Shown here piece after piece: positions 2,196-31,861 of a stretch of DNA of 32,150 nucleotides (positions are counted from its first letter, which is position 1; each line of letters begins with the position of its first letter). This stretch comes from an uncultured bacterium. Lineage in GTDB: Bacteria > Planctomycetota > UBA1135 > GCA-002686595. The translations under genes were made by a program, and so were the position numbers. The DNA is taken from the NCBI GenBank assembly GCA_938030175.1, contig CALHGQ010000056.1, positions 1-32,150 of the forward strand. Direction: 5' to 3'. The notes beneath the pieces were generated by a model that saw nothing but the letters and a program-made list of their open reading frames with translations, searched no databases and had not been told where the DNA came from.

Positions 2196-2822
2196 ATGGA
2201 TACTCCTCATCGAATCTCAACGAGCCATGCTGTCGGGGCGGTTGCCCACGCTGGCGCGGACGCGAAATCTACGTCATTTGCGACCGCTAAGAAGGCGGTG
2301 CAGCGGCCCGGAGCGCCGTCGGACCAGCTGCTCAAGTGCACGAAGAAGATCATCCTTCTCGGGCACTTTGGGGTCGGGAAGAGCAGCCTAGTGCAGCGCT
2401 TTGTGCACTCCGTTTTCTCGGCCGAATACCAGTCCACGATCGGCGTCAAAGTCGACAAGAAGCTCGTTGTGACCCCCACGCACGAGATGAAGATGGTTCT
2501 CTGGGACATCGAGGGCGCGCCCGATCAAACGAGCCTTCCGCGCTCCTACTTCGCAGGAGCGCACGGGATCCTCTACGTCTGCGACGTCACTCGCTCGTCG
2601 ACCTACCGCGACCTGTCGAAGACGCTTCCCGAACTCGTGCAGAAGTCGCCACGGGCCTCCATCGTCGTCATCGGCAACAAAATGGATCTTGTTGGCGAGG
2701 AGCAGCTCGAGGAGATGCGGGCTTTGGAGAACCCGGGCTTCGACTTCCTGAGCAGCGCGGGTACAGGAGAGAACGTGGAAACAGCGTTCCAAACGTTGGC
2801 GCGCAAGATCCTCGCAGCATGA
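2196..2822 (+). CDS. Rab/Ras-like small GTPase
   Basis: GHFGVGKSS (G1), YQSTIGVKV (switch I), WDIEGAPDQ (G3), NKMDL (G4), SSAGTG (G5). Confidence 0.85.
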   Translation: MDTPHRISTSHAVGAVAHAGADAKSTSFATAKKAVQRPGAPSDQLLKCTKKIILLGHFGVGKSSLVQRFVHSVFSAEYQSTIGVKVDKKLVVTPTHEMKMVLWDIEGAPDQTSLPRSYFAGAHGILYVCDVTRSSTYRDLSKTLPELVQKSPRASIVVIGNKMDLVGEEQLEEMRALENPGFDFLSSAGTGENVETAFQTLARKILAA

Positions 2823-3574
2823 ACCTCGACGAACTCAAGCTCGCTGCCCTCGCCGGCGAGTACCAGGTCGCGACCATCGACCCGGATGGAACGCTACTGA
2901 ATAGCTGCCACTCCTTGATCGACCTGCGCGACTCGATCGGCAAGCCATTCTTCGATCACTTCTCCATCTTCTGCGGCCTGCACCCCGAAGTGATGAGCCT
3001 CAACGAGTCCGATCCGGAGCTGTGCGTGCCGAAGGTCTCTGCACCAGAGTTTAGGACGGACGAGCACCTCGACTTCAGGTTTCGATTCAGAGGAAAGGGC
3101 CGCTCGGTCCTGCTGCTGATCTCCGCCCATGAGAGCGTCAACCGCCAGCTCCAGGAGACCCAGCAGCAACGCAACGAGACGGCGATCGCCTCGGAGCATC
3201 AGCGGGATAGGGACGCAGCTACCCGCGCAGAGAACGGCAGCCTGAGGAACTACGCGAGTGAGCTTTCCCACGACTTGAAAGCGCCACTCCGCGCGATCAG
3301 CCATCTCGCCGTTTGGGTGGAGGAGGCCGTGAAGGAAGGCAACCACGACAAGGTCTCCGAGTACCTCGACCTGATGAAGTCCCGGACCCATCGCATGGAG
3401 TCGTTGGTGGACGGACTGCTCGAGAGGCCGCGCGCCCGCGGTCTCTGCGCCGAAAGCTCGCTCGCAGCGAACCAGAGCCGCGGCCCCGAGCCCCCCGCCT
3501 GCGCGAGCTCTTGGCTCACCTGGCAGAACGCTAGCCCACCGGACTCGGCAACCAGTTCACCTGCCCATGGCTAA
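2819..3574 (+). CDS. Truncated sensor histidine kinase: HisKA/DHp domain without HATPase_c
   Basis: ATGA overlap with GTPase stop; H-box ELSHDLKAPLRAISHLAVWVEE; ends about 65 aa after the DHp region with no N/G boxes. Track ORF 2336-3574 is the same frame over-extended. Confidence 0.7.
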   Translation: MNLDELKLAALAGEYQVATIDPDGTLLNSCHSLIDLRDSIGKPFFDHFSIFCGLHPEVMSLNESDPELCVPKVSAPEFRTDEHLDFRFRFRGKGRSVLLLISAHESVNRQLQETQQQRNETAIASEHQRDRDAATRAENGSLRNYASELSHDLKAPLRAISHLAVWVEEAVKEGNHDKVSEYLDLMKSRTHRMESLVDGLLERPRARGLCAESSLAANQSRGPEPPACASSWLTWQNASPPDSATSSPAHG

Positions 3575-10878: not shown

Positions 10879-12378
10879 CTACTTGACGACGAGGACGATG
10901 CCGAAGGCTCCGAGCTGCTCGGACTCACGGGCCAGATCAGCCGTGGTGAGCGGGTGCTCGTCGAGCCAGCCGTCGGGAAATGTCAGGTGGAACCGAGAGC
11001 CCGAAGAGCGCAGCTTGAGCTCCGGCAGGCTGCGGCTCGTACGGTCGCGGCGCAGGCGCAGTGCGATGCGGAGCAGCGGGACCATGCAGCGGATCGCGTG
11101 CAGTCGCTCCCTTGGCTGGCCCCCCATGAGGTCCGGGCGCAACCGCCGGCGCTGACCGCGGATCAGCACCGCGAGCTGCTGGCGATCCTGGCGCGAGAAC
11201 CCGGCGAGGTCCGCGTGCTCCGCGAGGTACGCACCGTGCTTGTGGTAGCCAGCGTGACTGACGACGAGTCCGATCGTGTGAAGGAAGGCCGCCAAGCCGA
11301 GGAGCTGGCGATCGTCCCCGTCGAGACCTAGTGGCTCGGCGACTTGATCGAACAGGAACTCGGCCGTCTCTCGGCATCGGTCCCCATGGTCCGTGTCTAG
11401 GCCCATGCGCTCCATGAAGGCACGCGAGCTCGTCTCCCGCACATCCTCGTGGTGAATCCGCCCGAGGTGGTCGTGGAGCACCCCCTCGCGGAGCGCCCCC
11501 GCCGAGGGGGTCATCTCTTCGATGCCGAGGCTCTTGAAGACGGCCCGGAGGATCGCGACGCCCCCCGCTATGACCTGGCGGCGATCGGGTCGCATCCCAT
11601 CCAGGACGACCTTGTCGCCGACGCCGAAGTCGATAAGGCGGTGCCGGAGCTTCTTGAGTGCGCCCCGGGTGATCTTGCCGTCCGTGAGGCCAAGGCCCTG
11701 GAGAATCGCGGAGGTCGCCCGAATGGTCCCGCTGGATCCCACGGCTCGCACCCAGTTGTCCCTGTGGTAGATGTGCGCTACGGGTTCGAGCTCGACCCGC
11801 GCAGCGAGCTCGGCTCGCGAGAACGCCTCCGCCGTGATCCGCCCGCCCGGGAAGTGACGCTTGCTCCAGGTCACGCAGCCCATGCCGAGGCTGTCGCCGC
11901 TATGGCAAACGAAACGGGTTCCGATCATGCACTCGGTGCTGCCGCCGCCGATGTCCACGACCAAGCGGCGATCGTCGTCGTCCCCTAGCTGATGGGCCAC
12001 TCCGAGGTAGACAAGGCGCGCTTCCTCGCGGCCCGGCAACACTTCGATCTGAGCGCCGAGCGCGGCGGACGCGAGGCGAAGGAACTGGCCCCCATCCCGG
12101 ACGCGGCGGAACGTGGCTGTGCCGACGGCGCGGATGCGGTCCCGTGGGACCGCCTTGAGCCGCTCGCCAAAGCGCTCCAGCGCGTCGAGCGCCCGGGCCT
12201 GGACCACCGTGTCGAGGCCGCGCCCCGCCTGGAGTCCGTCCGCCAACGCGACGCGCTCGCGCAGGCGATCGATCACTTTGGGGCGACCATCGATCTCCCG
12301 AGCGACCACGAGGTGGAATGAGTTCGAGCCGAGATCAACGGCTGCAAGCGCAAGTTGATCGACGTCGGAGTTCGTCAC
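10879..12378 (-). CDS. Ppx/GppA family phosphatase (exopolyphosphatase / (p)ppGpp phosphohydrolase)
   Basis: LAAVDLGSNSFHLVVARE, VVDIGGGSTECMIG, C-terminal HD-like LHTIGLVVSHAGYHKHGAYL; likely GTG start at 12378. Confidence 0.88.
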   Translation of the reverse strand: MTNSDVDQLALAAVDLGSNSFHLVVAREIDGRPKVIDRLRERVALADGLQAGRGLDTVVQARALDALERFGERLKAVPRDRIRAVGTATFRRVRDGGQFLRLASAALGAQIEVLPGREEARLVYLGVAHQLGDDDDRRLVVDIGGGSTECMIGTRFVCHSGDSLGMGCVTWSKRHFPGGRITAEAFSRAELAARVELEPVAHIYHRDNWVRAVGSSGTIRATSAILQGLGLTDGKITRGALKKLRHRLIDFGVGDKVVLDGMRPDRRQVIAGGVAILRAVFKSLGIEEMTPSAGALREGVLHDHLGRIHHEDVRETSSRAFMERMGLDTDHGDRCRETAEFLFDQVAEPLGLDGDDRQLLGLAAFLHTIGLVVSHAGYHKHGAYLAEHADLAGFSRQDRQQLAVLIRGQRRRLRPDLMGGQPRERLHAIRCMVPLLRIALRLRRDRTSRSLPELKLRSSGSRFHLTFPDGWLDEHPLTTADLARESEQLGAFGIVLVVK

Positions 12379-12385
12379 AGTGCGC

Positions 12386-13453
12386 CTAGGAGAGAAGGGA
12401 ACGGAGTCGATCGACGCGTTCGAGCGCGGCGCCGGAGTCAAGTGCGCTCGTCGCCGCATCCACACCTTCTGCGATCGTCAGACAGCGGCCCGAAGCCTTG
12501 AGCATCAGCGCGGCGGACAACAGCGTGGCGTTGCGTGCCGGGCCGGTCTCACCCGCGAGGACCGCCTTGGTCATGTCGCCGGCGGCTTGGCAAAGGACCG
12601 GGTTGTCGGATGCACCTTGGCCCTCCTCGTGGGGCCCGAAGAGCGGGAGCTCTGGATCGCCTGAAGCGTCGAGACCGAAGTCCGCCGGCTCGACCGTGAC
12701 CGAGAGCAGATGATCCCCGTCGATCTCGATCCCACGCGTCCGCTTGACGATGCTGGGAACGACGCCTCCGTCGAGCCCTTGGAGAGCTACGCCACGCCGG
12801 TGGCCGAGGCCCTTCAGGACCTCCACGGCGGTACCGAGCACGGGCCCGCTTTGCGCGCCGATGAGAATGGCGGCACCGGCGGGGGCGATGAGCTTTTCGA
12901 GGGTGGAGAGCGGCGTCCGAATCACCATGTCGCCGCGGACCTTGCGGAGCGCCAGCATCGGGGGGCAGAGCCCAGCCACGGAGACCGTGGCGAAACCCGC
13001 CTTCGCGACCCAGTCCTCAGCCTCGCCCGGGTCCCAGGTCATGGAGAGCCCGAGGCCTTCGAGGACGTTGGCAGCCGTGAGCCCCCGACGCGGCGGTACG
13101 CAGCGGTCGGAGACCACGAGCACCCGGGCGCCGGCCGCAGCGGCCAGGAGGCCAGCGGCCACCTCGAGGGGCGGGGTGGTCTCATGGCCGTCCTGGGAAG
13201 GAGCCACGCACACGAGGCCGTTCATGCCCGCACAAGGAATGCGCGATTGACCCCGGGCCGCCATGGCCATGCCCATGAGCTCTTCAGTCGTGACCCCTTT
13301 CCACCGCAGGGTGACGAAAAACGAAGCCACCAGGGCCGCGCTTTCCGAACCGTTCAGAATCGCGGTGAAGGCATGGGAGGCCTCTTCCCTGCTCAAGTTT
13401 CGGACGCGCTTCGGGTCCGCAGTCAGGGAGCGCATGAGTCGGCGTAGCACCAT
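12386..13453 (-). CDS. Glycosyltransferase family 3 / anthranilate phosphoribosyltransferase-like protein (TrpD2/YbiB-like)
   Basis: LSREEASHAFTAILNGSESAALVASFFVTLRWKGVTTEEL N-terminal GT3 domain; LTAANVLEGLG and VRTPLSTLEKLIAP. Confidence 0.75.
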   Translation of the reverse strand: MVLRRLMRSLTADPKRVRNLSREEASHAFTAILNGSESAALVASFFVTLRWKGVTTEELMGMAMAARGQSRIPCAGMNGLVCVAPSQDGHETTPPLEVAAGLLAAAAGARVLVVSDRCVPPRRGLTAANVLEGLGLSMTWDPGEAEDWVAKAGFATVSVAGLCPPMLALRKVRGDMVIRTPLSTLEKLIAPAGAAILIGAQSGPVLGTAVEVLKGLGHRRGVALQGLDGGVVPSIVKRTRGIEIDGDHLLSVTVEPADFGLDASGDPELPLFGPHEEGQGASDNPVLCQAAGDMTKAVLAGETGPARNATLLSAALMLKASGRCLTIAEGVDAATSALDSGAALERVDRLRSLLS

Positions 13454-13521: not shown

Positions 13522-14547
13522 CTACTCCAATCGCTGGTCGCAGAGCTTGCAGAGCTCCATCTTCCGGTCGCGGAAGTCCTGGAGCGCCTGGGCGCGCTTC
13601 TCGCCGCGCCAGATCTCGGCCAGCGTCTCATTCTCGAGGCTACCGAGCACGACCCGGCCATCCACGTCCATACAGCACGCGGTGACTCGCCCGTCGCATA
13701 GCACCGTGGCCTTCTCCAGCTGCGGACACATCCGCTGGTTTCGCAGAAGCGTCTTGTCTGAGCCTTCACGGGGTCGGACGTAGCGGCGAGAATCGTTCTC
13801 GTGATCGACGGTCTTGAGGAATTCCTCGCCGTACTCGACCGTGCGGCTGATCTTGATCGGCTCCACGTCGGTCACTTCCGACTTCCAAGAGTCGTAGTCA
13901 TTGAAGTAGGACGGACGCTTGAGCGTCACCTCGTCCGCACCGAAGCCCTCGAGGAACTCCGTGACGTTCTCCTCGTTGTCCTCGTTGTAGCTGAACATGA
14001 TCGTCTGCAGCTGGACCCGAGGGAGCTTGGCGTTGCGCTCCTTCTTGCGCTGGATCAGGGCCCGAGTGTTCGCTACGACCGTATCGAAGTCGCCGCCACG
14101 CCGGTAGCGGACGTAGTCCTCCGCGTTAGCGCCATCGAGGGCGATGGATACGGAGGTCAGCCCCGAGTCGATCATGTTGTCGAAGCTGTCGGCCATCCGC
14201 ATGCCGTTGGTGCCAAAGTGTGTCTCAACGCCACGCCCGGAGAATTCCCGAACGTGTCCAAAGAGCCCAGGGTGGATGAGGGGGTCCCCCATCACGTGGA
14301 AGCAGACAGACTTGAGCGCGTTGTTGTCCTTGAGGATCTGCTGGACGTGGTGGTCCTTCAGAAAGCGCGTCGAACGACCCAGCATGTGGGTCGGGCAGAG
14401 GGCACATGCCAGGTTGCAAGCCGTGGTCGACTCAAGGTTGAGCACACGCGGAAGACGCCACCGGACGTAGCCCACGAGGAGTGGGCCCGGAAGCGTCTTA
14501 TAGAGGGTCTTGCGCACAAGATCCTTGAACCGGTGAATGATGCTCAT
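13522..14547 (-). CDS. Radical SAM / SPASM domain protein
   Basis: CNLACALC (Cx3Cx2C) cluster motif; C-terminal SPASM-like Cys motifs CPQLEKATVLCDGRVTACC and CKLCDQ; start taken at MSIIHRFKDL (14547). Confidence 0.9.
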   Translation of the reverse strand: MSIIHRFKDLVRKTLYKTLPGPLLVGYVRWRLPRVLNLESTTACNLACALCPTHMLGRSTRFLKDHHVQQILKDNNALKSVCFHVMGDPLIHPGLFGHVREFSGRGVETHFGTNGMRMADSFDNMIDSGLTSVSIALDGANAEDYVRYRRGGDFDTVVANTRALIQRKKERNAKLPRVQLQTIMFSYNEDNEENVTEFLEGFGADEVTLKRPSYFNDYDSWKSEVTDVEPIKISRTVEYGEEFLKTVDHENDSRRYVRPREGSDKTLLRNQRMCPQLEKATVLCDGRVTACCMDVDGRVVLGSLENETLAEIWRGEKRAQALQDFRDRKMELCKLCDQRLE

Positions 14548-14732
14548 TGGGGGCAGGTCGGAACCCGGAGGACCCACGAACGCGGGGGTCCAAGACCCGA
14601 CCCGGGGAAGCCTACAGACTGACCCCACGGACGGCACGCCAGATATCTAAGTCGCTCGCGCGCGTTCGAAACAGTCGAATTTGGAATCCAGGAGACCAGG
14701 GGTGAGGCGGGTGTCACAAGAAAAGACAGAGA

Positions 14733-14756
14733 GCGCCTCCGATCTCTCGGAGGCGC
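14733..14756 (-). terminator. Intrinsic terminator, probably bidirectional, at 3' end of the amidohydrolase array
   Basis: Perfect 10-bp stem GCGCCTCCGA-TCTC-TCGGAGGCGC; T-rich tract on the minus strand (TCTCTGTCTTTTCTT) and CCCTTTCTC on plus. Confidence 0.75.
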
Positions 14757-14849
14757 CCTTTCTCGCTGCCAGGAAACTGGTTCCGTTAGGACATTCGTGG
14801 CCCCATGGAAGGCTTCCCAGGCTGCGGATCGATGCTATGGATCGGCAGG

Positions 14850-16358
14850 CTACTGGCCGTCTCTGAACCCATCTCCGCCGTCTCCGTCCCCAGAGCCGCC
14901 GTCGTCGCCGTCTCCGGCCCCGTCATCGCCCTCTCCGTCACCTTTGGCGTCGTCCGGCGTCTCATCGCCACCCTCTTCAGGTGCGTCCTCTTCAGGTGCG
15001 TCCTCTTCGGGCTCAATAGCGCCTTCCTCCCCGGCGTCCATGGCCTCCTCAGGCGCAAGCGCCGACTCCGGGCGGGGACGGATGTGAGCGAAGAACATCT
15101 CCTCCTGCTTGTCGTACACGACCTCGCCGTCCACGATCGCCCATTGGACGAAGGTCTGGTAGTGGAGCACGTCGCCGTCCGTGACGATTAGGTCAGCATC
15201 CTTGCCGACCTCGATGGATCCGATGCGGTAGTCCACGCCGAGGACACGGGCCGCCTCGAGGGTGATGGACTCCAGGGCCGCGTCCTCGGGGAGGCCGCCA
15301 CGGATGGCAAAGCCCGCCTCGATCGGCAGGTGCAGGAGGTCCTGACCCACGATGCCGCCGAGGGAAATACCCCGAGAGGCCGGAACGACCACCACGGGGA
15401 CACCGTGGTTGTGGAGCTTGGCTGCGTTCTCGATGGAGCTACCACCCTCAGCGACCTGGCGCTCGTCCTTGCCGCGGCGGGTCCGCGGAGTGACGATCGC
15501 GGTGACGCCGGCGCGTCCCAGCTCGTCGGCCACGGCCCATCCCTCGCGGGCTCCTTCGATGATCGGACGGAAGCCGTAGCGCTGGGCCAAGGCCGCGATC
15601 TCCACGAGGTCAGTGCGGGTGTTGGCCGCGAAGCGCGGACGCGTGTCCCCGCGCAGGATGCCGACGTACTTCGCGTCGACGCCCTTCCGGGAGGGCTCCT
15701 TCGCCTCCTTGTTGGACCGCTTCTCGACCTCGTACGCGCGGTAGGTCCGCAGGAACGCGGCCGCCTTTGCGAAGTCAGCTTCGACCTTGAGCTGCCCCTG
15801 GGGGTTGCCGTTGCTGTAGCTGATCGTCTCGAACGCGCTCTCCTTGAGCACGAGCCCTTCGACATGACCGCGCTTGAGCTTGGCCACCGTGTTGCCGTTC
15901 ACGGCGGTCGTGATGCCCGCCGCCAGCGCCAGGGTCATGTTCTGGTTGTAGGGATCGACGGAGTCGCTGAGGTCCCCGCTGCCGCCGAAGAGGCCGAACG
16001 AACCGACGGCCACAAGGCCCGGGTAGATCCGCATCCCGTTCACGTCGACCACTTCTGCGCCTTCCGGCACATCCACGTCGTAGCCGAACGCCTCGATCTT
16101 GCCGTTCTTGGAGAGGAGCGTCGCGTCGCGCAGCACGCCCCCGAGACCGGTGTGGATCTCGCCGCCGACGAGGGCGAGGTACTCGTCCTCTTCCTCTTCC
16201 TCCTCCTCTTCTTCGTCCTCCCACGCGTAGGGAGCGGGATAGCTAGCGGTGGCGGAACGAAGAACGTTGGCCGAGGCTCCGGCCGCGAAGAGGAGAGCCG
16301 TCAGGGCCGTGCCCATCGCCCATGCGCCTCTGGATGAAGTCATTTGAAGCTGTTTCAC
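14850..16358 (-). CDS. A11: secreted amidohydrolase-like protein, predicted inactive; acidic N-terminal stretch and D/E/G-rich C-terminal tail
   Basis: Signal peptide (MTSSRGAWAMGTALTALLFAAGASA); amidohydrolase end signature LGVDYRIGSIEVGKDADLIVTDGD; HxH position reads LVAVGSFG. Confidence 0.85.
   Translation of the reverse strand: MKQLQMTSSRGAWAMGTALTALLFAAGASANVLRSATASYPAPYAWEDEEEEEEEEEDEYLALVGGEIHTGLGGVLRDATLLSKNGKIEAFGYDVDVPEGAEVVDVNGMRIYPGLVAVGSFGLFGGSGDLSDSVDPYNQNMTLALAAGITTAVNGNTVAKLKRGHVEGLVLKESAFETISYSNGNPQGQLKVEADFAKAAAFLRTYRAYEVEKRSNKEAKEPSRKGVDAKYVGILRGDTRPRFAANTRTDLVEIAALAQRYGFRPIIEGAREGWAVADELGRAGVTAIVTPRTRRGKDERQVAEGGSSIENAAKLHNHGVPVVVVPASRGISLGGIVGQDLLHLPIEAGFAIRGGLPEDAALESITLEAARVLGVDYRIGSIEVGKDADLIVTDGDVLHYQTFVQWAIVDGEVVYDKQEEMFFAHIRPRPESALAPEEAMDAGEEGAIEPEEDAPEEDAPEEGGDETPDDAKGDGEGDDGAGDGDDGGSGDGDGGDGFRDGQ
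14972..15001. repeat. Two exact copies of a 15-bp tandem repeat (cctcttcaggtgcgt) encoding the EDAPEEDAPE stretch in the A11 tail
   Basis: Read directly: 14972-14986 and 14987-15001; a third degenerate copy follows. Confidence 0.8.
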
Positions 16359-17683
16359 TAGTGCATATCCCCGCTAACAAACTTGCCGTCAAGCATGACC
16401 GCGTCGAGGTTGGTTCCCGGCTGGAACGGGTCTCCATTGAAAATGAGCAGGTTGGCGCGGCGGCCTTCCTGGAGCGACCCCACGCGGTCCTCGAGTCCGA
16501 GAAACTTGGCGGGACGGTGGGTCAGGGCTTGGATCGCAGCCTTGCGGTCCAGGCCAGCCCCGATCATGACGCCGACGTCCTCGAGGAAGGCCTTGAAGCC
16601 AGCCTCGTTGTCACGACGCGGGATGAGCACGAGCTTGGCGCCGGCACGCTCGAACTCGGCCGGCAGGTTGCGCTGGCGCATGGTGCCCGGCATCAGGGTG
16701 ATCAGCGGCTCCATAAGAACGAAGCATCCAGTCTCGCCTACCTTGTCCTTCACGTGGAAGACATCGATGTCACGGGTGAGTGGAACGCGCAGGTGCCACT
16801 CGAACTCTTCTTCACCGACCGCGTCCACAAGGTGAACGAAGCTCGCAGCCGAGCCCACGGAGAAGAGCGCGCTGAGCTTGCCATCACGCAGGTCGAAGAA
16901 GGGCTGAATGCGGGCGTCGGGCTTCGGGGCCTCGAACTTGGGCGCCTTCGAAGACTTGGACGACTTCGAGCTGCTCTTCTTCTCGTCTTCCTTTTCCTTG
17001 TCGTCTTCGTCGTCCTTCTTGGATGAAGACTTCTTCTTCGAGGACGACTTCTTCGAGTTCTTCTTCTCGAACTTCTCGCGCTCCTTCTTGACCTTCTCCA
17101 GGTGAGCATCGGCCTTCTTGAAGCCGTCCCTTAGGTTGCGCTTGGAGCTCGCGGAGTTGCGCATCACGAACTTCAGGTAGACACCGTCCTCGAGGATCAT
17201 GTCCTCTGCGTCGTCCCCCTGGGGCTTCACAGCGACCGCTTGTCCGGGAACGCCCTGGCCGGCCGGGTACTGCGCGACGGTGGTCATCCCGTACTCGAGG
17301 AACGTCTCGTACGCGTCCGACGGATACAGTTCCGCCGAAGCCATGACGTAGGGCCGCGCATCGTTGTAGCCGTTACCCGACATGCCGAAGCGCGAGTACG
17401 GGTTGACGATCCCGGGCATCACCACCTGGTCGTCGCTCAGCTCAATGACGGGAATACCGCGCTCGATCGGAAGGTCCTGGCCCATGGTGACGATCTCGCC
17501 GTCCTCCACAAGAATGACAGCGTGCTCCATCACCTCGCCGTTGCCGATTTCGACGCGACGGGCTTTGATGGCGAACAGATCTCCCTGGGGAGGTGCGTTC
17601 AGCGCGCTTGGGTCCAGACCAGGGGCCGGGCCCCCGAGAGACCCAGTGAGGGCTGGAAGAAGTAGAAGGGAGGAAATCATCAT
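16358..17683 (-). CDS. A10: secreted amidohydrolase-like protein, predicted inactive; K/S/D/E-rich insert
   Basis: Signal peptide MMISSLLLLPALTGSLG; VVMPGIVNPYSRFG replaces HxH; FLGLEDRVGSLQEGRRANLLIFNGDP; insert EKKNSKKSSSKKKSSSKKDDEDDKEKEDEKKSSSKSSKSSK. Confidence 0.85.
   Translation of the reverse strand: MMISSLLLLPALTGSLGGPAPGLDPSALNAPPQGDLFAIKARRVEIGNGEVMEHAVILVEDGEIVTMGQDLPIERGIPVIELSDDQVVMPGIVNPYSRFGMSGNGYNDARPYVMASAELYPSDAYETFLEYGMTTVAQYPAGQGVPGQAVAVKPQGDDAEDMILEDGVYLKFVMRNSASSKRNLRDGFKKADAHLEKVKKEREKFEKKNSKKSSSKKKSSSKKDDEDDKEKEDEKKSSSKSSKSSKAPKFEAPKPDARIQPFFDLRDGKLSALFSVGSAASFVHLVDAVGEEEFEWHLRVPLTRDIDVFHVKDKVGETGCFVLMEPLITLMPGTMRQRNLPAEFERAGAKLVLIPRRDNEAGFKAFLEDVGVMIGAGLDRKAAIQALTHRPAKFLGLEDRVGSLQEGRRANLLIFNGDPFQPGTNLDAVMLDGKFVSGDMH
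16955..17105 (-). other. Low-complexity K/S/D/E-rich insert in A10
   Basis: EKVKKEREKFEKKNSKKSSSKKKSSSKKDDEDDKEKEDEKKSSSKSSKSSKAPK. Confidence 0.85.
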
Positions 17684-17760
17684 GGAATGACCCGAGACGT
17701 GTCTCGGAGGGAAAAGCTTCGGATGAAGAAGGCCGAAGGGGAGGAACGCGGCGGGAGGAG

Positions 17761-18960
17761 CTAGAAGAGCTGGCCGTCGCGATCTTGGTCGTATTCGAGG
17801 TTCCCGTTGACGTAGACGGATTGGACAGCGGAGCGAGGATCCAGCGGATCGCCACCCCAGAGAACGATGTCGGCGTCTTTGCCGACCTCAAGGCTGCCGA
17901 TGTGTTCGGACAGGTCGAACGCTTTGGCAGGGTGAATCGTGAGGGCACGCAGCATCTGGTACGGATCCGCCCCGTAGCGTGCGCTCATGGAGCCTTGGAG
18001 GAAGAAGAGCTCCTCGGGGATGACACCGGAATCGGTGTTGAGGGAAAACAGCGGCACGCCGGCCTTCACGAACTCGGCGCCGGAGCCGATGATCCGCCCC
18101 TCGCGGCTGCTGAAGTAGTCGATGGTTCGCGGACCGTGGTTCACCGGAATGCCCACCGACGCCAGAGCTTCCGCGGACTTCCAGCCGTCGAAGCTTCCGT
18201 GGGAGACCACGGCCTTCGCGCCGTACTTGACCTTCCACATGCGGGCGGTGTTCAGCACGCCCTCGCTGCCGGCGGTGTGAATCAGCACCGGGATCTCCCC
18301 GTGAAGGACCTTTTCCAGGTCGATCAATGCCGGATCAAAGCGGTCCATCCGGCGCGAGGCGAGCGCGCGGTTGTTCACGTCCGTGAGGTTCCACTCCATC
18401 CCCGCACGGGTCACTCCAAAGTCGGTGGAGTTGCGCCCTTGGGGATTGGAGTCCTGGGCGATCTTGATTCCGCCCGGGCTCTTGTGGATGGAAGCGTCAA
18501 AGCCAGCGCGCGCTGGCTTGTAGACGAAGCCGACGCCGCCCATGTTCGTGCCGCTACCGGGGATGCCAAAGAGGCTCGTCACGCCCCCCGCGCGCCCGAC
18601 GCGAATGAGCGGGTTCTCGGGCTTGAACGCGGCCACGGCCCGAAGCTCTGGGTTCACGGCGTGGACCATGTCGTTGACGTCGCCGAACCCGCCGCTATGG
18701 ATGTGCGTGTGCAGGTCCACGAGCCCAGGGGAAGCCCATGAGCTACGGCGGTCCAACGGCTCTGGCAGGTCAGGTCGATCGACGATCGGACCGGCGTAGG
18801 CAATGTCACCGTCGGCGATGACGAGCATGGCGGGCGAGATCACCTCGTCCGCGTCGTTCATCGTGAGAAGCTTGCCGACGTGAAGTACGACGGGCTCCGA
18901 TGCTTCGCTCGAACCTTGCAGGGCAAGGGCTGCGGCGGCCAGTGTCAGGAGGGCGCCCAT
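17761..18960 (-). CDS. A9: secreted amidohydrolase, metal ligands intact
   Basis: SPGLVDLHTHIH (HxH), IKIAQDSNP, VLIHTAG, VVSHGSFD, LNTDSGVIPEE; signal peptide MGALLTLAAAALALQGSSEA. Confidence 0.92.
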   Translation of the reverse strand: MGALLTLAAAALALQGSSEASEPVVLHVGKLLTMNDADEVISPAMLVIADGDIAYAGPIVDRPDLPEPLDRRSSWASPGLVDLHTHIHSGGFGDVNDMVHAVNPELRAVAAFKPENPLIRVGRAGGVTSLFGIPGSGTNMGGVGFVYKPARAGFDASIHKSPGGIKIAQDSNPQGRNSTDFGVTRAGMEWNLTDVNNRALASRRMDRFDPALIDLEKVLHGEIPVLIHTAGSEGVLNTARMWKVKYGAKAVVSHGSFDGWKSAEALASVGIPVNHGPRTIDYFSSREGRIIGSGAEFVKAGVPLFSLNTDSGVIPEELFFLQGSMSARYGADPYQMLRALTIHPAKAFDLSEHIGSLEVGKDADIVLWGGDPLDPRSAVQSVYVNGNLEYDQDRDGQLF

Positions 18961-20243
18961 TACCAGCTCCTCCCGTCGCGGTCAGCGCAATAGGCACAGG
19001 CGCCGTTGACCCAGGTCGCCTCAAAGGCGGTTCGCGGATCGATGGGGTCGCCGTCCGTCACGATGAAGTCGGCGTCCTTCCCAACCTCAAGGCTACCGAC
19101 GCGGTGGGCGATGCCCGCGGTGCGCGCAGGCACGATCGTCACGCCACGGAGCCCTTGGCCGCGCTCGTTGCGAAGGCCATACCGCACCCCCATGGCCGCC
19201 TGCATCGACAGCTCTTCCTGGGGCACCACCGGAGCGTCGGTGTTGAACCCAACCTCGTCCATACCCGCCTCTTGAAAGCCCCATGCGGTGCCTTCGATCC
19301 GGCCGTCCGTGTCGAAGCGCGGCGGCCGAGGGATCATGATCTCCCGCGGGCCGAGGATGGCTGCGACGCCGTACTTCTTGGCCTCGGGGGTCGTGAGGTA
19401 GCTATCGAATGAGCCGTGATCGATGTAAGTCGGCAGCCCAAAGTCACGCGCCAGAAGCGTGATCGACATCAGCACGAGCTGGTAGTACTGCGTGTGCGTC
19501 GAGACCTGCGTGCGGTTTGCGTAGAGCTCGCGGAAGATGTCGAGCCCAAGGTCGCGCTTCGGCTTTTCTCCCTCGCCGTTCTCGAAGCGCTCCCAGGCGC
19601 GGGCGTAGCTGCGGCCCCGCGTGAGGCGGTAGCGCAGCGTGTAGTTCATCAGGATGCGTCCCATCCCGTAGCCCCAGCGGGTGGGGTTGTCCCCCTGGGC
19701 GATCTTGAGTGAGCCGGGATCGCGAACCAGCGCGTCCTCGTACTCGTCCTCGCCGAGCTTCATCAGAACGCCTTGGCCCCCGATGTTCGTACCCGACCCA
19801 GGGATGAAAAGGATGGTGGTGACGCCCGCGGCGAGCGGGCGCTCCAGCCGTGAGTTGTTGGGAACCACCACCGGTGAAACGCGGAGCTCCGAGTTCACCT
19901 GGTAGACCATGTCGTTGATGTCCCCCGTCGACCCGCCCACGTGGCTGTGCAGGTCGATGAAGCCCGGGGCGAGCCAATGGTCGCCGTAGTCCGTGACGTT
20001 GACCCACTCCTTATCGGCAACGTCAGCGCCCGCATGGATGGCGACGATCTTGCCGTCGGCGATCACCATCACGGGATCCTCCACCACCTGGACGCCTTCG
20101 TCGGCGCAGGTAATGAGCTTCCCGGCTCGCACGACCAACGAACCGATGGGTTGCCCTGGGGGCAACTCGGTCGAAGGGCTGTCCACGCGCGCGCCTACTG
20201 CGGCGCAGAGCGCGAGGGCCGGGATCGTCAGGGTGAGGAACAT
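18960..20243 (-). CDS. A8: secreted amidohydrolase, metal ligands intact
   Basis: APGFIDLHSHVG, LKIAQGDNP, STHTQ, YIDHGSFD, FNTDAPVVPQEE; signal peptide MFLTLTIPALALCAAVGA. Confidence 0.92.
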   Translation of the reverse strand: MFLTLTIPALALCAAVGARVDSPSTELPPGQPIGSLVVRAGKLITCADEGVQVVEDPVMVIADGKIVAIHAGADVADKEWVNVTDYGDHWLAPGFIDLHSHVGGSTGDINDMVYQVNSELRVSPVVVPNNSRLERPLAAGVTTILFIPGSGTNIGGQGVLMKLGEDEYEDALVRDPGSLKIAQGDNPTRWGYGMGRILMNYTLRYRLTRGRSYARAWERFENGEGEKPKRDLGLDIFRELYANRTQVSTHTQYYQLVLMSITLLARDFGLPTYIDHGSFDSYLTTPEAKKYGVAAILGPREIMIPRPPRFDTDGRIEGTAWGFQEAGMDEVGFNTDAPVVPQEELSMQAAMGVRYGLRNERGQGLRGVTIVPARTAGIAHRVGSLEVGKDADFIVTDGDPIDPRTAFEATWVNGACAYCADRDGRSW

Positions 20244-20263
20244 GGAGGGGAGGACTGAGTCGC

Positions 20264-21694
20264 CTACCAGAGACGCTTCTCTTCGGACGTGTCGTACACG
20301 GACTCACCGCTCTGCCATGCGGCCTTCACGAAGCTGCGAGGGTCAGCGGGGTCGCCGGTGATCCAGAGCAGGTCCGCAATCTTGCCGACCTCGATGCTGC
20401 CAAGGGACTCATCGAGTCCACACGCCATGGCCGGCACGATGGTCAAGCCGCGGACAGCGTCCATCTTTGAGTTGTCGAAACCGTAGCGAACGCCCATGGC
20501 TGCCTGCAGGGGCAACTCTTCCTGGGGGATCACAGGGGAGTCGGTGTTGAACCCGATGCGCGTCACCCCCATCTCTTGGTAGCCGGCCACGCAGCCCTGA
20601 ATGCGCTCAGGGTTCGAGCCTGACCAGTTGATGAAGCCGCGGGTGGGAACGTCGATCGCACGGGGCCCGACGATGGCGAAGATCTCACGGTCCTCGATCT
20701 CCTGGCCGAGGCGCCACGTGTCGAAGGTGCCGTGGTCGATGTACACCGGGATGCCCAGCTCGTCGTGCACCATCGTCAGCGTCTTGAGTGCAACCTGGTA
20801 GATCTGCGTGTGGGTCGAGATCTGCGCTTCCTTCGCCATCAGGGCGCGGAAGGTCTCGAACTGCGGATCGATCTCAGGCCTCTCGCCGCCGTTCTTCTCG
20901 TACTCCGTCCACTTGGCCGCGTAGTTCGTGCCGCGACGCAAGGTGTTCCGCGTGTTCCAGTTCATGAACGTACGGCTCGGAGAGATCGTCCAACGTTCCG
21001 GGTTACCGGCCTGGGCCAGCTTCATGGAGCCGGGGTCACGGATCTCTGCGCGGTCGAACGTGTCGAAGCCCGAGCGCAGGAGAATGCCCTGGCCGCCGAT
21101 GTTCGCGCCGGAACCGGGGATGTACAGCACGGTCGTCACGCCGGCGGCCAGGCCGCGGCGCAGGGCGCCGTTGCCTGCGATCACGTCGCTGGACGCGCGC
21201 AGCCCTGGGTTCGTGAGGTAGACCGTGTCGTTGAGACCAAACGCGCCGGCGATGTGGCAGTGCAGCTCCACGATGCCCGGCATGAGCCAGTCGTTCCCGA
21301 GGTCCTTGACCTCGTAGTCGGACGGGATCTCGATTTCTGAGGCGGGGCCAACCGCTTCGATGCGCCCATCCTTGACGAGCACCACGCCGTTGTTCACGAC
21401 GGAGCGCCCCTGCCATTCGGCGGTCAGGATCTTCTTCGCGGTCACAGCGAGGCCAGGACCGTCCAGCATGCCAGCCTTCGGGGCGGCGGCGGCACGGCCC
21501 GGCACCACGGGGGGCTTCGGGGCGATACCGTTCGGATCGCGCTTCAGGATGGGCCGCTTCGCGGGCTTGGAGGCGTCGAAGGAGTCGGCGCTCGCATCAG
21601 CACACAAGACAAGGCCCAGAGCCGCGGCGGCACTGACTCCAAGGGTCGACAAAGCCGCGGAGGTTCCGCGCAGACGGTTCAGGGTTTCGCGCAT
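20264..21694 (-). CDS. A7: secreted amidohydrolase, metal ligands intact
   Basis: MPGIVELHCHIAG, MKLAQAGNPE, STHTQIYQV, YIDHGTFD, FNTDSPVIPQEE; signal peptide STLGVSAAAALGLVLCADASA. Confidence 0.92.
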   Translation of the reverse strand: MRETLNRLRGTSAALSTLGVSAAAALGLVLCADASADSFDASKPAKRPILKRDPNGIAPKPPVVPGRAAAAPKAGMLDGPGLAVTAKKILTAEWQGRSVVNNGVVLVKDGRIEAVGPASEIEIPSDYEVKDLGNDWLMPGIVELHCHIAGAFGLNDTVYLTNPGLRASSDVIAGNGALRRGLAAGVTTVLYIPGSGANIGGQGILLRSGFDTFDRAEIRDPGSMKLAQAGNPERWTISPSRTFMNWNTRNTLRRGTNYAAKWTEYEKNGGERPEIDPQFETFRALMAKEAQISTHTQIYQVALKTLTMVHDELGIPVYIDHGTFDTWRLGQEIEDREIFAIVGPRAIDVPTRGFINWSGSNPERIQGCVAGYQEMGVTRIGFNTDSPVIPQEELPLQAAMGVRYGFDNSKMDAVRGLTIVPAMACGLDESLGSIEVGKIADLLWITGDPADPRSFVKAAWQSGESVYDTSEEKRLW

Positions 21695-23067
21695 CAGTAG
21701 CGGCGCTCTTCGAGCGCGTCGTAGACCTTTTCACCCTCTTGGAAGGTGAGGTAAATCATCGTGCGGGGGTCTGTCGGATCCCCAGACGAAAGAATGAAGT
21801 CGGCGTCCTTGCCGGGCTCGAGGCTGCCGACTCGATCGGCGATACCTGCGGCAGTGGCGGGCACGATCGTGAGGCCGCGGACGTGGAGGGCGGCGTCGTT
21901 CTTGAAGCCGTAGCGCACCGCCATGGCGGCCTGGAGCGGGAGCGCCTCCTGGGGGATCACCGGGGAGTCCGTGTTGAAGCCGATCATCGTGTGACCCTCC
22001 TCCTGGTACTTCGCGGCGATGCCGAAGATCGCGCCGTCGTTGTCGTTCACGATGAAGAGACCGGGGCGGTACTCCACGTTGATGCTGTTGCTGATGGCGC
22101 GCGGCCCGAGGATCGCGGGGACGCCAGCCTTCTCGGCCTCAGGCGCGGCGCGCCAGCCGTCGAATGAACCGTGGTCGATGTAGACGTCGAGCCCGAGCTC
22201 TTCCTTGACCATCTTCACGGTCATGAGGACGACCTGATAGATCTGCGTGTGCGCCGAGAGCTGGACCTTCTTGTCCACGAGTCCACGGAAGGCGCTCCAC
22301 ATCGGATCGGCCTTGGGCTTCTCACCGCCGTTCTTCTCGAAGCTGGTCCACGACTTCGCGTAGGCGATGCCGCGCTTCAGCGTGTGGCGCGTGTTCCAGT
22401 TCATGAAGGAACGCCCGACGCCCATGAGGAAGCTCTCGGGGTTGCCCGCCTGGGCCAGCTTCAGGGAGCCGGGGTTGCGAATCTCCATCCGCTCGTACTT
22501 CTCAAAGCCGGTCTTGAGGAGCACGCCTTGGCCGCCGATGTTCGTGCCCGAACCCGGGATGTAGAGCACGCTCGTGACCCCGGCGGCGGAGCCGTTGAGG
22601 AAGTCGCTGTTGCCAGGCACCACCGACGTCCAGGCACGGATGCCCGGATTGGTCAGGTAGACCATGTCGTTGAGGTCGTTCGTGAAGAAACTCGCGCCCG
22701 CGACGTGGCTGTGCAGGTCGATCATCCCCGGCGAGAGCCAGTCCGACGATCGGTCGAGGATCTCGTGGGTCTCCGCGAGGGCCTCAAGGTCGACTTCGCT
22801 GCGTCGAGCGATGCGGACCACCTTGCCCTCTTCGACGATCATCGCGGCGTTGTCGATGACCTGCTCGCCCTCCAAGGGCATCGCAAGGGCCTTCTTCGCC
22901 AAGACGACTAGGCCTCGCTCGGCACCTGCCGCGCCCGGTGATGGATCACCCACAGCTCCGCTCCACCCCATCGCACCCGCGCCAGCCATGCTGACGAGAA
23001 GTGCGGCGGAGAGAGAGGCGGCCGCGATGCGCGACAGAGTCCCTGGAGTCGAAACCTGGAGCCCCAT
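21694..23067 (-). CDS. A6: secreted amidohydrolase, metal ligands intact
   Basis: SPGMIDLHSHVAG, LKLAQAGNPE, SAHTQIYQV, YIDHGSFD, FNTDSPVIPQE; signal peptide region SRIAAASLSAALLVSMAGAGA. Confidence 0.92.
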   Translation of the reverse strand: MGLQVSTPGTLSRIAAASLSAALLVSMAGAGAMGWSGAVGDPSPGAAGAERGLVVLAKKALAMPLEGEQVIDNAAMIVEEGKVVRIARRSEVDLEALAETHEILDRSSDWLSPGMIDLHSHVAGASFFTNDLNDMVYLTNPGIRAWTSVVPGNSDFLNGSAAGVTSVLYIPGSGTNIGGQGVLLKTGFEKYERMEIRNPGSLKLAQAGNPESFLMGVGRSFMNWNTRHTLKRGIAYAKSWTSFEKNGGEKPKADPMWSAFRGLVDKKVQLSAHTQIYQVVLMTVKMVKEELGLDVYIDHGSFDGWRAAPEAEKAGVPAILGPRAISNSINVEYRPGLFIVNDNDGAIFGIAAKYQEEGHTMIGFNTDSPVIPQEALPLQAAMAVRYGFKNDAALHVRGLTIVPATAAGIADRVGSLEPGKDADFILSSGDPTDPRTMIYLTFQEGEKVYDALEERRY

Positions 23068-23069
23068 GA

Positions 23070-26000
23070 CTAGCGGACTTCCTTGCCGTTGACGAAGACG
23101 CGCAGGATGGAAGACGAGATCTCCATCGGGTTGCCGTCCAGGATGACGATGTCGGCGTCCATGCCGGCCTCAAGGGTTCCGACGCGGTCTTCGATGCAGA
23201 GCATCTTCGCTGCGTCGGAGGTCAGCCCCTTGAGGGCCGCCGACGGCGCCAGGCCCTGGGCCACTGCGCGCGCCGCCATGACGCTGAGCTCCGCGGCGCC
23301 CTCTTCCCGTTGGCTGAGGAAGGCGATCGGAATGCCAGCGGCTGAGACTTCCACGAGTCGGTTGCGCCGAAGCCCGCTCTTCTCCGTAGCCGTCATGCGG
23401 TTCATCGGAACGAGCACACCCGCGACACGACCCGCGATGCGGCCCGCGACCTTGTGGACATCGTCCGAGTCGATGAGCACCGGCTTGATGCCGTACTCCT
23501 CGAAGCGATCGACGCACGCGACGATCTGATCGTCGCGGCTGACCTTGACGATGACCGCTGCCTCGCCAGCCATGGCGCGACGGATCGGCTCGAGGTCGAG
23601 GTCGACAGAGGGCTTCTTCGGCATGCCCTTGGGCGGCTTCGGAGCCTTCTCTTTCTTCTCCACCTTCACGATGCGCTTGGCGACCTTGTACTCGGTGGAG
23701 GTCTGCGTCACGTCGACGGCGCCGAGAACGGTCTCGCCGTCCTTCACGTCGCCGCGCAGGTACGTCTTGACCGTGTCGTCCTCCTCCTCGTCTTTGTCCT
23801 CGTCCTTCTTGTCGGCATCCTTGTCGGCGTCTTTGTCGTCGTCCTTGGACTTCTTCGACTTCTTGGACTTCTTCGGCGGCGGATCGTTGGAGTAGATCTG
23901 AGCGAGGGTCGCCTCGAGGTCGCCATCAGGCGTCTCGATGGTCAGCGTCACGTCGTAGTCCGTTCGGCTGCCTGTGACCGTCAGAAGATCATCGAATCCG
24001 GCCATGCGAGCCGTACCTTCGATCGAGCCGTCTGCCGACTCCAAGAAGCGGAAGCGAACGCTGCCTGCGTCCTCGCCGTCAGCGGGCGTGAAGCTGCCAG
24101 CGAAGACGCCCGTCACCGGCTTGGCCGGGTCGCGCTCCTTCTTCTTCTTTTTCTTCTTGTCGTCCTCGTCCTCTTCCTCGTCGTCAGAGTCTTCGTCCTC
24201 GTCATCGTCCTCTTCCTCCGCGGCCTCAGGGGCGGGCGGAGTCCACTTGGCCATGTCGGCCTCGTACTTGTCCCAGCTATCCGCGTAGGCCTTGGCCTTC
24301 TTGAGCTGCTGGGTGACGTTGGCGCCGGACTGGGCGATGATCGAGTTGTCCCACTGCAAACGCACCGAAGCGACGCTGTCCACCACGAGGTGGTCGAAGC
24401 TGTCAGCCGCCGGCTTATAGGCGATCGACGGAGTGACCCCGCCGAGGTTCTGGGAGATCATGTTGACCGTGGTGACGCCGTTGCGTGCCACCTGTCGGTC
24501 TGCGTAGTCGCCGGGCTCTAGGATGCGAGTCAGGTCGAGGCGCGTCGTGAACGCCCGGCGACCGCCTTCGGTCCCGAGGTGCCCATAGGCGTCGATCATT
24601 CCAGGCATCGCGGAAGCGCCACGCACCACGGCAGCGCCGGCAGGCCGCGCGACCTGGGCCGCCACCTGGGCGATCTTGCCGTCCCGCACGAGGATCTCGC
24701 CGGGGCTGTGCACAACGCCGTTGCCCACGTGGAGCTCGTCGACGCTGATGACGACGGGCCCGGGGTTCGACGCTGCGGAAGACATCGACCCGCCGGAGCC
24801 ACCCGAGCCAGAGCCCGAGGATCCGCCCGCAGTCATGGCCGATGCCATGGTCGGGTTCCAAGCTTCGGTGCCGCCTACGTACGTGGCGACCACGGAAGCC
24901 CCGATGGAAAGGGGTGAGCCGGTCATGACGACGATGTCCGCGTCCTTACCGACCGCAAGGCTTCCGACACGATCGTCCACGCCGAGAACCTTCGCGGCGT
25001 TGAGCGTGATTCCGGCCAATGCGTCGGCCTCGGACAGGCCACCGCGCATGGCGAGGGCCGCAGCGAAACGAATTTCGGAGGCACCGAGGCCCTTCGGAAC
25101 GGTGATCGCGACTTCGACACCTTCGCCCACGAGGCGCGCAATGCCGTCGTAGGTCGGCCACTTCGCGGTCTCCGTCTTGCCGACGTTGCGTCCTTGCTCG
25201 TAGTGCGGACGCGCGATCACGGGCACGCCCGCGGCTGCGATGTCCTCGGCGAGGGAAGCCGCCTGGCTTGCCCCGTCGATCACGAGGGGGAATCCGAAGC
25301 GCTTGGCCAGGTCGAGGACCGCGGCGACTTCGCCCTGGGACTCGGCCCCAAGGCGCCAGGTCGCGCCCGCCTTCATTGCCTTGGCGAGGGCAGGACCCGT
25401 CTGGCGGCCGTACTCTTCCTCGAAGGAGCGGTCTCCCCCAGCAAAAGCCATGAGCTCTTCGATCGCGAGCACCGCGCCCATCGTGGTGCGCGGCAGCTGC
25501 GGCGACTCAACGCCCAGCCCAACGTCCACGGTCGCGGGCACGGGCGGTTCCCAGTAGCCGCGCGTCCGGCGCGCTTCCTCACTGATCGATCCGTGCAGGC
25601 CTGCGGACTCCAGCAGGACGCGAGCGTCCGGCGAGCCCATCTCACCACCACCCGTCTTGACGACGGCGCCCTGGCCAGCGATCAGTCGACCACGGGCCGG
25701 AGCGAGGTACACCGTGGTGATACCGCTCTTGAGTCCGGAGATGATGCTGGAGTAGGGATCGAACTGGTCGATCGCGAGCAGCGTCGGGTCCGCGGTGCGC
25801 GGCCCTGCCGTCGGGCTGGCGTACGCCGAATCCGCTGCCACGAAGCCAGGCACGATGACGGCCTCGGAGCCGTAGTCCATCGTGGTGGCGTTCGCCGGGA
25901 TCTCGACGTCGGCCGCGGCGCCAACAGCGGTGATCTTGCCGTCCGTGACGACGATCACGCCGTCTTCGAACGACGCGCCGCCCTCGACGGCATGGATGGT

Positions 26001-26174
26001 GCCGGCACGCAGCGCCATGGTGCCCGACTGGGTCGAGCTAGGCGCGTACGCCGTGGAAGGCATCGCCAGAGCGAAGGCCGTCGTCGCGGCTGCGGTCATG
26101 CCGAGAACGAGGCCAGGGGAGGCCTGACTCGCGGCGGATTGGAACGGCAGCAGTGTTGAAATGAGGTTACGCAT
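23070..26174 (-). CDS. A5: secreted tandem (double) amidohydrolase-like protein, both domains predicted inactive; acidic/Lys-rich inserts and a beta-rich inserted domain
   Basis: Two end signatures (LGVDDRVGSLAVGKDADIVVMTGSP and LCIEDRVGTLEAGMDADIVILDGNP); Gly/Ser linker between; HxH positions read GFVAADSAYA and GMIDAYGHLG. Confidence 0.88.
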   Translation of the reverse strand: MRNLISTLLPFQSAASQASPGLVLGMTAAATTAFALAMPSTAYAPSSTQSGTMALRAGTIHAVEGGASFEDGVIVVTDGKITAVGAAADVEIPANATTMDYGSEAVIVPGFVAADSAYASPTAGPRTADPTLLAIDQFDPYSSIISGLKSGITTVYLAPARGRLIAGQGAVVKTGGGEMGSPDARVLLESAGLHGSISEEARRTRGYWEPPVPATVDVGLGVESPQLPRTTMGAVLAIEELMAFAGGDRSFEEEYGRQTGPALAKAMKAGATWRLGAESQGEVAAVLDLAKRFGFPLVIDGASQAASLAEDIAAAGVPVIARPHYEQGRNVGKTETAKWPTYDGIARLVGEGVEVAITVPKGLGASEIRFAAALAMRGGLSEADALAGITLNAAKVLGVDDRVGSLAVGKDADIVVMTGSPLSIGASVVATYVGGTEAWNPTMASAMTAGGSSGSGSGGSGGSMSSAASNPGPVVISVDELHVGNGVVHSPGEILVRDGKIAQVAAQVARPAGAAVVRGASAMPGMIDAYGHLGTEGGRRAFTTRLDLTRILEPGDYADRQVARNGVTTVNMISQNLGGVTPSIAYKPAADSFDHLVVDSVASVRLQWDNSIIAQSGANVTQQLKKAKAYADSWDKYEADMAKWTPPAPEAAEEEDDDEDEDSDDEEEDEDDKKKKKKKERDPAKPVTGVFAGSFTPADGEDAGSVRFRFLESADGSIEGTARMAGFDDLLTVTGSRTDYDVTLTIETPDGDLEATLAQIYSNDPPPKKSKKSKKSKDDDKDADKDADKKDEDKDEEEDDTVKTYLRGDVKDGETVLGAVDVTQTSTEYKVAKRIVKVEKKEKAPKPPKGMPKKPSVDLDLEPIRRAMAGEAAVIVKVSRDDQIVACVDRFEEYGIKPVLIDSDDVHKVAGRIAGRVAGVLVPMNRMTATEKSGLRRNRLVEVSAAGIPIAFLSQREEGAAELSVMAARAVAQGLAPSAALKGLTSDAAKMLCIEDRVGTLEAGMDADIVILDGNPMEISSSILRVFVNGKEVR
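24130..24230 (-). other. Acidic-then-lysine block in A5 C-terminal domain
   Basis: APEAAEEEDDDEDEDSDDEEEDEDDKKKKKKKERDP; long purine tract on the coding strand. Confidence 0.85.
24775..24840 (-). other. Gly/Ser interdomain linker in A5
   Basis: AMTAGGSSGSGSGGSGGSMSSA between the two amidohydrolase units. Confidence 0.8.
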
Positions 26175-26195
26175 GGGTGGACTCCGGGGAGCCGA

Positions 26196-31673: not shown

Positions 31674-31861
31674 GCTCGAGGGATCGATCTTGCTAGGTGA
31701 GATAGAGAAAAGGGAGCGCCTGACCAGACGTTGGAATTCGCCTGGCCATGGAATGGGCCCTCTTGGATCGTATGGAGTCAGAGAACCCCGAACCATCTTG
31801 AAGCGGCACACAGCGCGATTGCGCCTGGAAGACTTACGCGCGGAGCAACACTGAGAGGGGC

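Follow-up and report, generated by a model that had tools for sequence, protein, structure and literature searches.

Layout of the amidohydrolase array

We analyzed a 32,150-nt stretch of DNA from an uncultured member of the Planctomycetota (contig CALHGQ010000056.1 of assembly GCA_938030175.1; hereafter, the window), in which eleven consecutive minus-strand open reading frames (ORFs), here named g1 to g11, extend over positions 14850-31811 and encode proteins of the amidohydrolase superfamily. An earlier note, made from the sequence alone, had described them as an uninterrupted array of exported hydrolases, and its account of the layout proved accurate. All eleven proteins scored above the curated cut-off of PF01979 (26.1 to 86.9 versus 25) and most also matched PF07969, no other family lies between the array genes, and the 11 genes specify 12 domains, with two in g5 (23070..26174, 1034 amino acids (aa)). 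The 1-nt overlaps claimed at 21694, 18960 and 16358 are present, and gaps across the array range from -1 to 92 nt. As described, the array is closed by an intrinsic terminator-like element on the same strand (14730..14759, ~90 nt past g11), a GC-rich hairpin of 13 bp that is followed by a U-rich tail and has a folding z-score of -3.6 relative to shuffled sequences. At the opposite end, the more likely start of g1 (30135..31811) is the ATG at 31673, from which translation would begin with a typical signal peptide (MRISILRPS...), and not the GTG at 31811; the minus-strand stretch upstream of this likely start (31674..32150) is where a promoter is expected, and none was recognized there. Rfam gave no match in the window. 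The note had also assigned an N-terminal signal-like segment to each protein, which held for most of them and of their orthologues, in which a hydrophobic segment precedes the domain, rather than for every one; the array proteins are probably exported.

Loss and retention of the metal site

Metal binding in this superfamily involves an HxH motif after strand 1, a Lys after strand 4, His residues after strands 5 and 6 and an Asp after strand 8. In an alignment of the twelve window domains, all six ligands were found only in g6 (21694..23067), g7 (20264..21694), g8 (18960..20243) and g9 (17761..18960), the catalytic copies (CATs) designated CATa, CATb, CATc and CATd, respectively. The set was lost in eight of the 12 domains, corresponding to seven of the 11 proteins (g1-g5, g10 and g11). 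The expectation that all eleven are hydrolases was, therefore, not borne out. The N-terminal strand pattern and the C-terminal LGVDDRVGSLEVGKDAD signature that the earlier reader had recognized lie outside the catalytic residues and, thus, could not reveal the loss of the metal site. Orthologue groups gave the same division. In the groups of g6, g7, g8 and g9 (37, 83, 46 and 47 sequences), the six ligands were present nearly without exception, a few sequences having alignment gaps, while none of the groups for g1, g2, g3, g4, g5N, g5C, g10 and g11 (52-66 sequences each) retained the full set, the strand-6 His position being read in these groups from adjacent residues because they align to a gap there. 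Isolated ligands persist in some of them, as with the Lys in g4 and g10. Because the ligand set is lost both in the window and across the orthologue groups, g1-g5, g10 and g11 are, by sequence, pseudo-amidohydrolases.

The pseudo members differ in what became of the former active site. The g1 protein (slot 1; PF01979 score of 35.8 bits, ligand columns examined in 52 orthologues) has lost its metal ligands, carries a Lys/Glu-rich insert and contains a Trp that ranks among the 6% most conserved columns. Ligands are likewise lost in g2 (slot 2; 29002..30102). In most orthologues of g3 (slot 3; 27782..28978), the former active site shows S-x-R, R and Q, and the motifs RRPTTRMG and DIRT are invariant in this slot; g4 (slot 4; 26196..27689) displays H-x-S with the Lys retained and the His, His and Asp gone. 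The g5 protein consists of two pseudo domains, g5N (~aa 50-445) and g5C (~aa 472-1034), and carries strongly charged inserts as well as a small all-beta one (~aa 689-826). A conserved Y-x-R, in columns among the 17% and 7% most conserved, replaces HxH in g10 (slot 10; 16358..17683), which also contains a Lys/Ser/Asp-rich insert; g11 (slot 11; 14850..16358) has lost the ligands and ends in an acidic tail. The pockets of g2, g5N and g11 have drifted, with most positions falling in the less conserved half of columns. Stretches of 30 residues with at least 60% Lys, Arg, Asp or Glu occur in 100% of g1, 98% of g5, 93% of g10 and 64% of g11 proteins, in 42% for g4 and in at most 19% for the remaining slots.

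Pairwise ratios of nonsynonymous to synonymous substitution (dN/dS) were 0.06-0.27 for the pseudo genes and overlapped the 0.02-0.18 of the catalytic genes; these are simple pairwise counts between relatives, with some dS values near 1. On the basis of these ratios, which indicate purifying selection, the pseudo genes are not decaying. The amidohydrolase fold is supported by profile matches for all pseudo domains and, additionally, by structural modeling of g5. An AlphaFold2 model of g7 (mean confidence pLDDT 84.7; predicted template modeling score, pTM, 0.83) had PDB 3ooq as its best match (E value of 3.4e-30; template modeling score TM(target) of 0.85-0.86). The same structure was the best match for the g5 model (pLDDT 73.8, pTM 0.58; TM(target) of 0.81), where the pTM is too low for reading the domain interface and the inter-domain packing is unreliable. 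A pseudo member is, thus, predicted to keep the fold.

By sequence, 3ooq is also the nearest solved relative of g7 (E value of 5.5e-36). We take it to be the TM0814-type amidohydrolase of Thermotoga maritima; no paper on it was found. The nearest characterized relatives are Cc2672/prolidase-like amidohydrolases of the same superfamily, such as the L-Lys/L-Arg carboxypeptidase 3mtw and the Xaa-Pro dipeptidase 2qs8, for which we know of no pseudo partners. The Xaa-Pro dipeptidase family NF051886 was the top-scoring NCBIfam family for most array proteins, yet reached only 30-86 bits against a cut-off of 500, and the imidazolonepropionase model TIGR01224 (HutI) gave at most 65 bits against 298; no NCBIfam equivalog model recognized an array protein. 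PADLOC models for anti-phage defence were without match for the nine of the 11 proteins tried.

Distribution, gene order and ancestry of the slots

A search of GTDB species genomes using the catalytic alignment recovered 76 loci, which came almost entirely from entries titled Planctomycetota or from metagenome-assembled genomes (MAGs) without a taxon title. The nearest relative was Planctomycetes bacterium Poly30 (87% in the best segment), presumably Saltatorellus ferox, the complete genome of which contains the array (L005). Among 299 sampled Planctomycetota genomes, a slot-4 profile matched 91 at E<=1e-40, among them each of the 19 from the window's family, and a slot-3 profile matched 149 at E<=1e-20, its weaker matches including the smaller loci described below. 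Forty more stretches from the sampled genomes showed an eight-gene, nine-domain module in many other families, usually with one CAT, and in some cases only two or three domains. The size and exclusivity of the array, singled out in the earlier note, are, therefore, not peculiar to this genome, the dissected loci being mostly of the eight-gene version. The nine-slot form was confined to Planctomycetota in the loci found, the one exception being a partial set in a MAG with the title Flavobacteriales (L071), which is possibly mis-binned. In two same-order genomes, the slot-4 matches (G231:C13:30508-31860 and G248:C26:189495-190850) cross one in-frame TAG.

Annotation of the loci by ORF, profile and BLAST revealed a single order, g1-g2-g3-g4-g5(N+C)-CAT(s)-g10-g11. 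Scoring with slot-specific profiles found this order complete in 62 of 82 arrays, in a sample picked by the presence of CAT or slot 3 that may favor complete arrays. Eleven of the remaining 20 are cut by locus ends, two have a doubled g1 call and seven differ at a slot: the second g5 domain is weakly classified, g1 and g2 are swapped in L142, or a g3 or CAT call occupies the g2 slot in L147 and L149. No slot was missing outright from any array not cut by a locus end. Pseudo slots are, for the most part, single, and CAT alone varies in copy number, from one to five by lineage, with four in the window. The recurrence of the identical gene order in dozens of genomes excludes a chance origin.

In a tree of 172 domains, built by a quick method under a one-matrix model, CAT, g3, g4 and g5N each formed a single clade and g5C, g10, g11 and g2 nearly so; g1 has long branches and grouped less clearly. 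Slot position, therefore, nearly equals ancestry, and the slots are older than many planctomycete families. Together with the conserved order, the slot-specific clades agree with the earlier suggestion of one co-inherited, co-oriented system and not a set of unrelated hydrolases. CAT has multiplied in the window's family into distinct clades, of which CATc and CATd are examples, and elsewhere is mostly present once or twice. Two distant genomes, L131 and L132, have a g2 slot that still appears catalytic, with six of six ligands in the former and five of six read, one being unaligned, in the latter, which suggests that catalysis was lost within an already fixed slot.

Smaller relatives combine live and dead domains. 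Duo loci in other Planctomycetota pair a CAT with one pseudo domain, the two being fused in L117 and L118, and trio loci contain a pseudo-CAT fusion with a separate pseudo protein, as in L119 and contig C229 of the window's own genome. The latter (L001:6099-11008) is a second, smaller set in which a 1192-aa fusion ORF accompanies a 455-aa pseudo protein. Slots can also be joined to each other; g10 and g11 form one 892-aa reading frame in L132 (2321-4996, minus strand). The live/dead and slot/slot fusions suggest contact between the fused partners. A plasmid search with g4 returned only distant relatives of <28% identity, one of them a split trio. This trio, on a plasmid of Hymenobacter volaticus (Bacteroidota; L151), has its two-domain member divided over several ORFs, probably by frameshifts. 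As a Bacteroidota plasmid holds a trio, live-dead domain pairing extends beyond the Planctomycetota.

The window also contains genes outside the array. Glycos_transf_3 and Ppx/GppA genes (10879-13453, minus strand) come after it on the same strand, an arrangement seen in about 45-51 loci belonging to the window's family; in the window they are separated from the array by a radical SAM/SPASM gene (13522-14637). We rejected Glycos_transf_3 and Ppx/GppA as module parts, since other families have different neighbors. Polyphosphate binding, considered in view of the Lys/Ser/Asp-rich inserts and the nearby Ppx gene, was dismissed as too speculative for proteins that are probably exported and a neighborhood that is family-specific. 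Farther away, on the plus strand, are a Ras-family small GTPase gene (2196-2822; PF00071, E value of 5.6e-31), here in a bacterium and adjoining signalling genes, and an ORF with a HisKA domain and no ATPase domain (2336-3574), the ends of which look out-of-frame and which is possibly a frameshifted histidine kinase.

A candidate exported hetero-oligomer

From the confinement of the metal site to CAT, purifying selection on the pseudo genes, fixed order, slot-specific clades, single-copy pseudo slots, live-dead and slot-slot fusions, translational overlaps, the concentration of charged inserts in a few slots and a known precedent, we infer that the array probably encodes one exported hetero-oligomeric amidohydrolase in which eight pseudo domains are combined with exchangeable catalytic subunits. 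The precedent is the pseudo-dihydroorotase (pDHO, PyrC') of Pseudomonas aeruginosa, an inactive chain of amidohydrolase fold that the aspartate transcarbamoylase (ATCase) dodecamer needs both to assemble and to be active (PMC7053772). The pDHO-ATCase system is cytosolic and uses one pseudo chain type to aid an enzyme of another fold (PMC7053772), whereas the array sets eight pseudo domains beside relatives from the same family, in a location that is probably extracytoplasmic. Ligand loss, a retained fold and purifying selection, as would be expected of pseudoenzymes that support an enzyme in the manner of pDHO, are all present in the array; the signs that its proteins associate physically, or that activity depends on the pseudo members, are indirect ones, namely the fusions, the fixed slots and the overlaps. 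The duo and trio loci (L117, L118, L126, L143, L145, L119, C229 and L151) resemble the array in having one live domain with one or two dead ones, often fused, but comprise two or three domains only, and in the tree, which does not include L151, the live domains of these loci fall outside the CAT clade of the array. Among the open-access papers searched by words, with subscription papers lying outside the search, no description of such an array was found. Pseudoenzyme-supported enzymes are already known as a kind, and the array appears unusual for its large dead-to-live domain ratio.

In the proposed mechanism, the array proteins would be translated together, exported and assembled, with g1, g2, g3, g4, g5N, g5C, g10 and g11 as the constant part and CAT as the variable part. 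The pseudo domains would take the places that identical catalytic chains occupy in an ancestral or ordinary homo-oligomer, stabilize CAT and shape or position its substrate, and the charged inserts of g1, g5, g10 and g11 might serve as tethers. CAT duplicates in the window's family would then provide several specificities on a single scaffold. The most likely reaction, suggested weakly by the Cc2672/prolidase-like relatives, would be periplasmic or cell-surface hydrolysis of small peptides or N-acyl amino acids at an amide bond. The more specific version, an ancient planctomycete nine-slot machine in which eight pseudoenzyme domains surround one catalytic paralogue in an asymmetric hetero-oligomer and specificity is changed by multiplying CAT alone, is one that we put forward tentatively, at somewhat short of even chances.

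Several observations weigh against such a complex. Former active-site positions are fixed to new residues in g10 (Y-x-R) and g3 (S-x-R, R and Q), which could reflect binding or new chemistry instead of a scaffold role, and some pseudo members may bind ligands through these residues. In several window proteins, the signal peptide contains no basic residues. No function is described for 3ooq, the closest solved structure, the record of which is titled just 'amidohydrolase'. Adjoining genes are not conserved beyond the window's family, and the context, therefore, gives no substrate. Finally, solo CAT-like genes, close to which no further array member was found, exist in four loci (L056, L072, L073 and L075), so that CAT may act alone; the genomes of L072 and L075 also hold the array (L044 and L035).

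Were the metal-less proteins separate binding or sensing proteins that hold a ligand in the old pocket and feed or regulate the catalytic members with no stable complex, their independent genes and the fixation of old-site residues to new identities in g10, g1 and, partly, g3 would be accounted for. We nevertheless regard this as unlikely, as g2, g5N and g11 have kept their slots despite drifted pockets, and the fixed order and the fusions, both to CAT and between slots, favor contact. The same conserved pocket residues (Arg, Tyr and Lys in g3, g4 and g10), along with strong purifying selection, could instead point to enzymes with a new metal-free or relocated active site. No common new catalytic motif was seen in the g4, g3 and g10 alignments, however, and many independent inventions of chemistry within one operon would be needed, making this explanation a decidedly improbable one. 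That the array is a nutrient-scavenging set of eleven secreted hydrolases acting independently on different substrates, close to the guesses of the earlier note, accords with the single superfamily, the probable export and the distinct CATc and CATd clades. Under this reading an invariant slot set would be unexpected, and it conflicts with the absence of the metal site from eight of 12 domains in all orthologue groups; such independence is contradicted for the pseudo slots, although possible for g6-g9 alone, and as an account of the whole array we give it very little credence. Tandem paralogues of one family might also arise by amplification with decaying copies or as an assembly artefact. The array is present in the complete Poly30 genome and in many others, and we rejected tandem decay because dN/dS is far below 1, the slots are ancient clades and the order is conserved; this last option we consider close to negligible.

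If the hetero-oligomer reading is correct, the array would represent an extreme example of an enzyme family in which most copies have become non-catalytic partners, with eight dead domains to one live, and such a set would have been kept since before many planctomycete families split. Duo, trio, nine-slot and four-CAT nine-slot loci would offer a natural series for asking how a homo-oligomer becomes an obligate hetero-oligomer. For annotation, profile matches alone would label all array genes as hydrolases and lead to an overestimate of the hydrolytic potential predicted for environmental planctomycetes.
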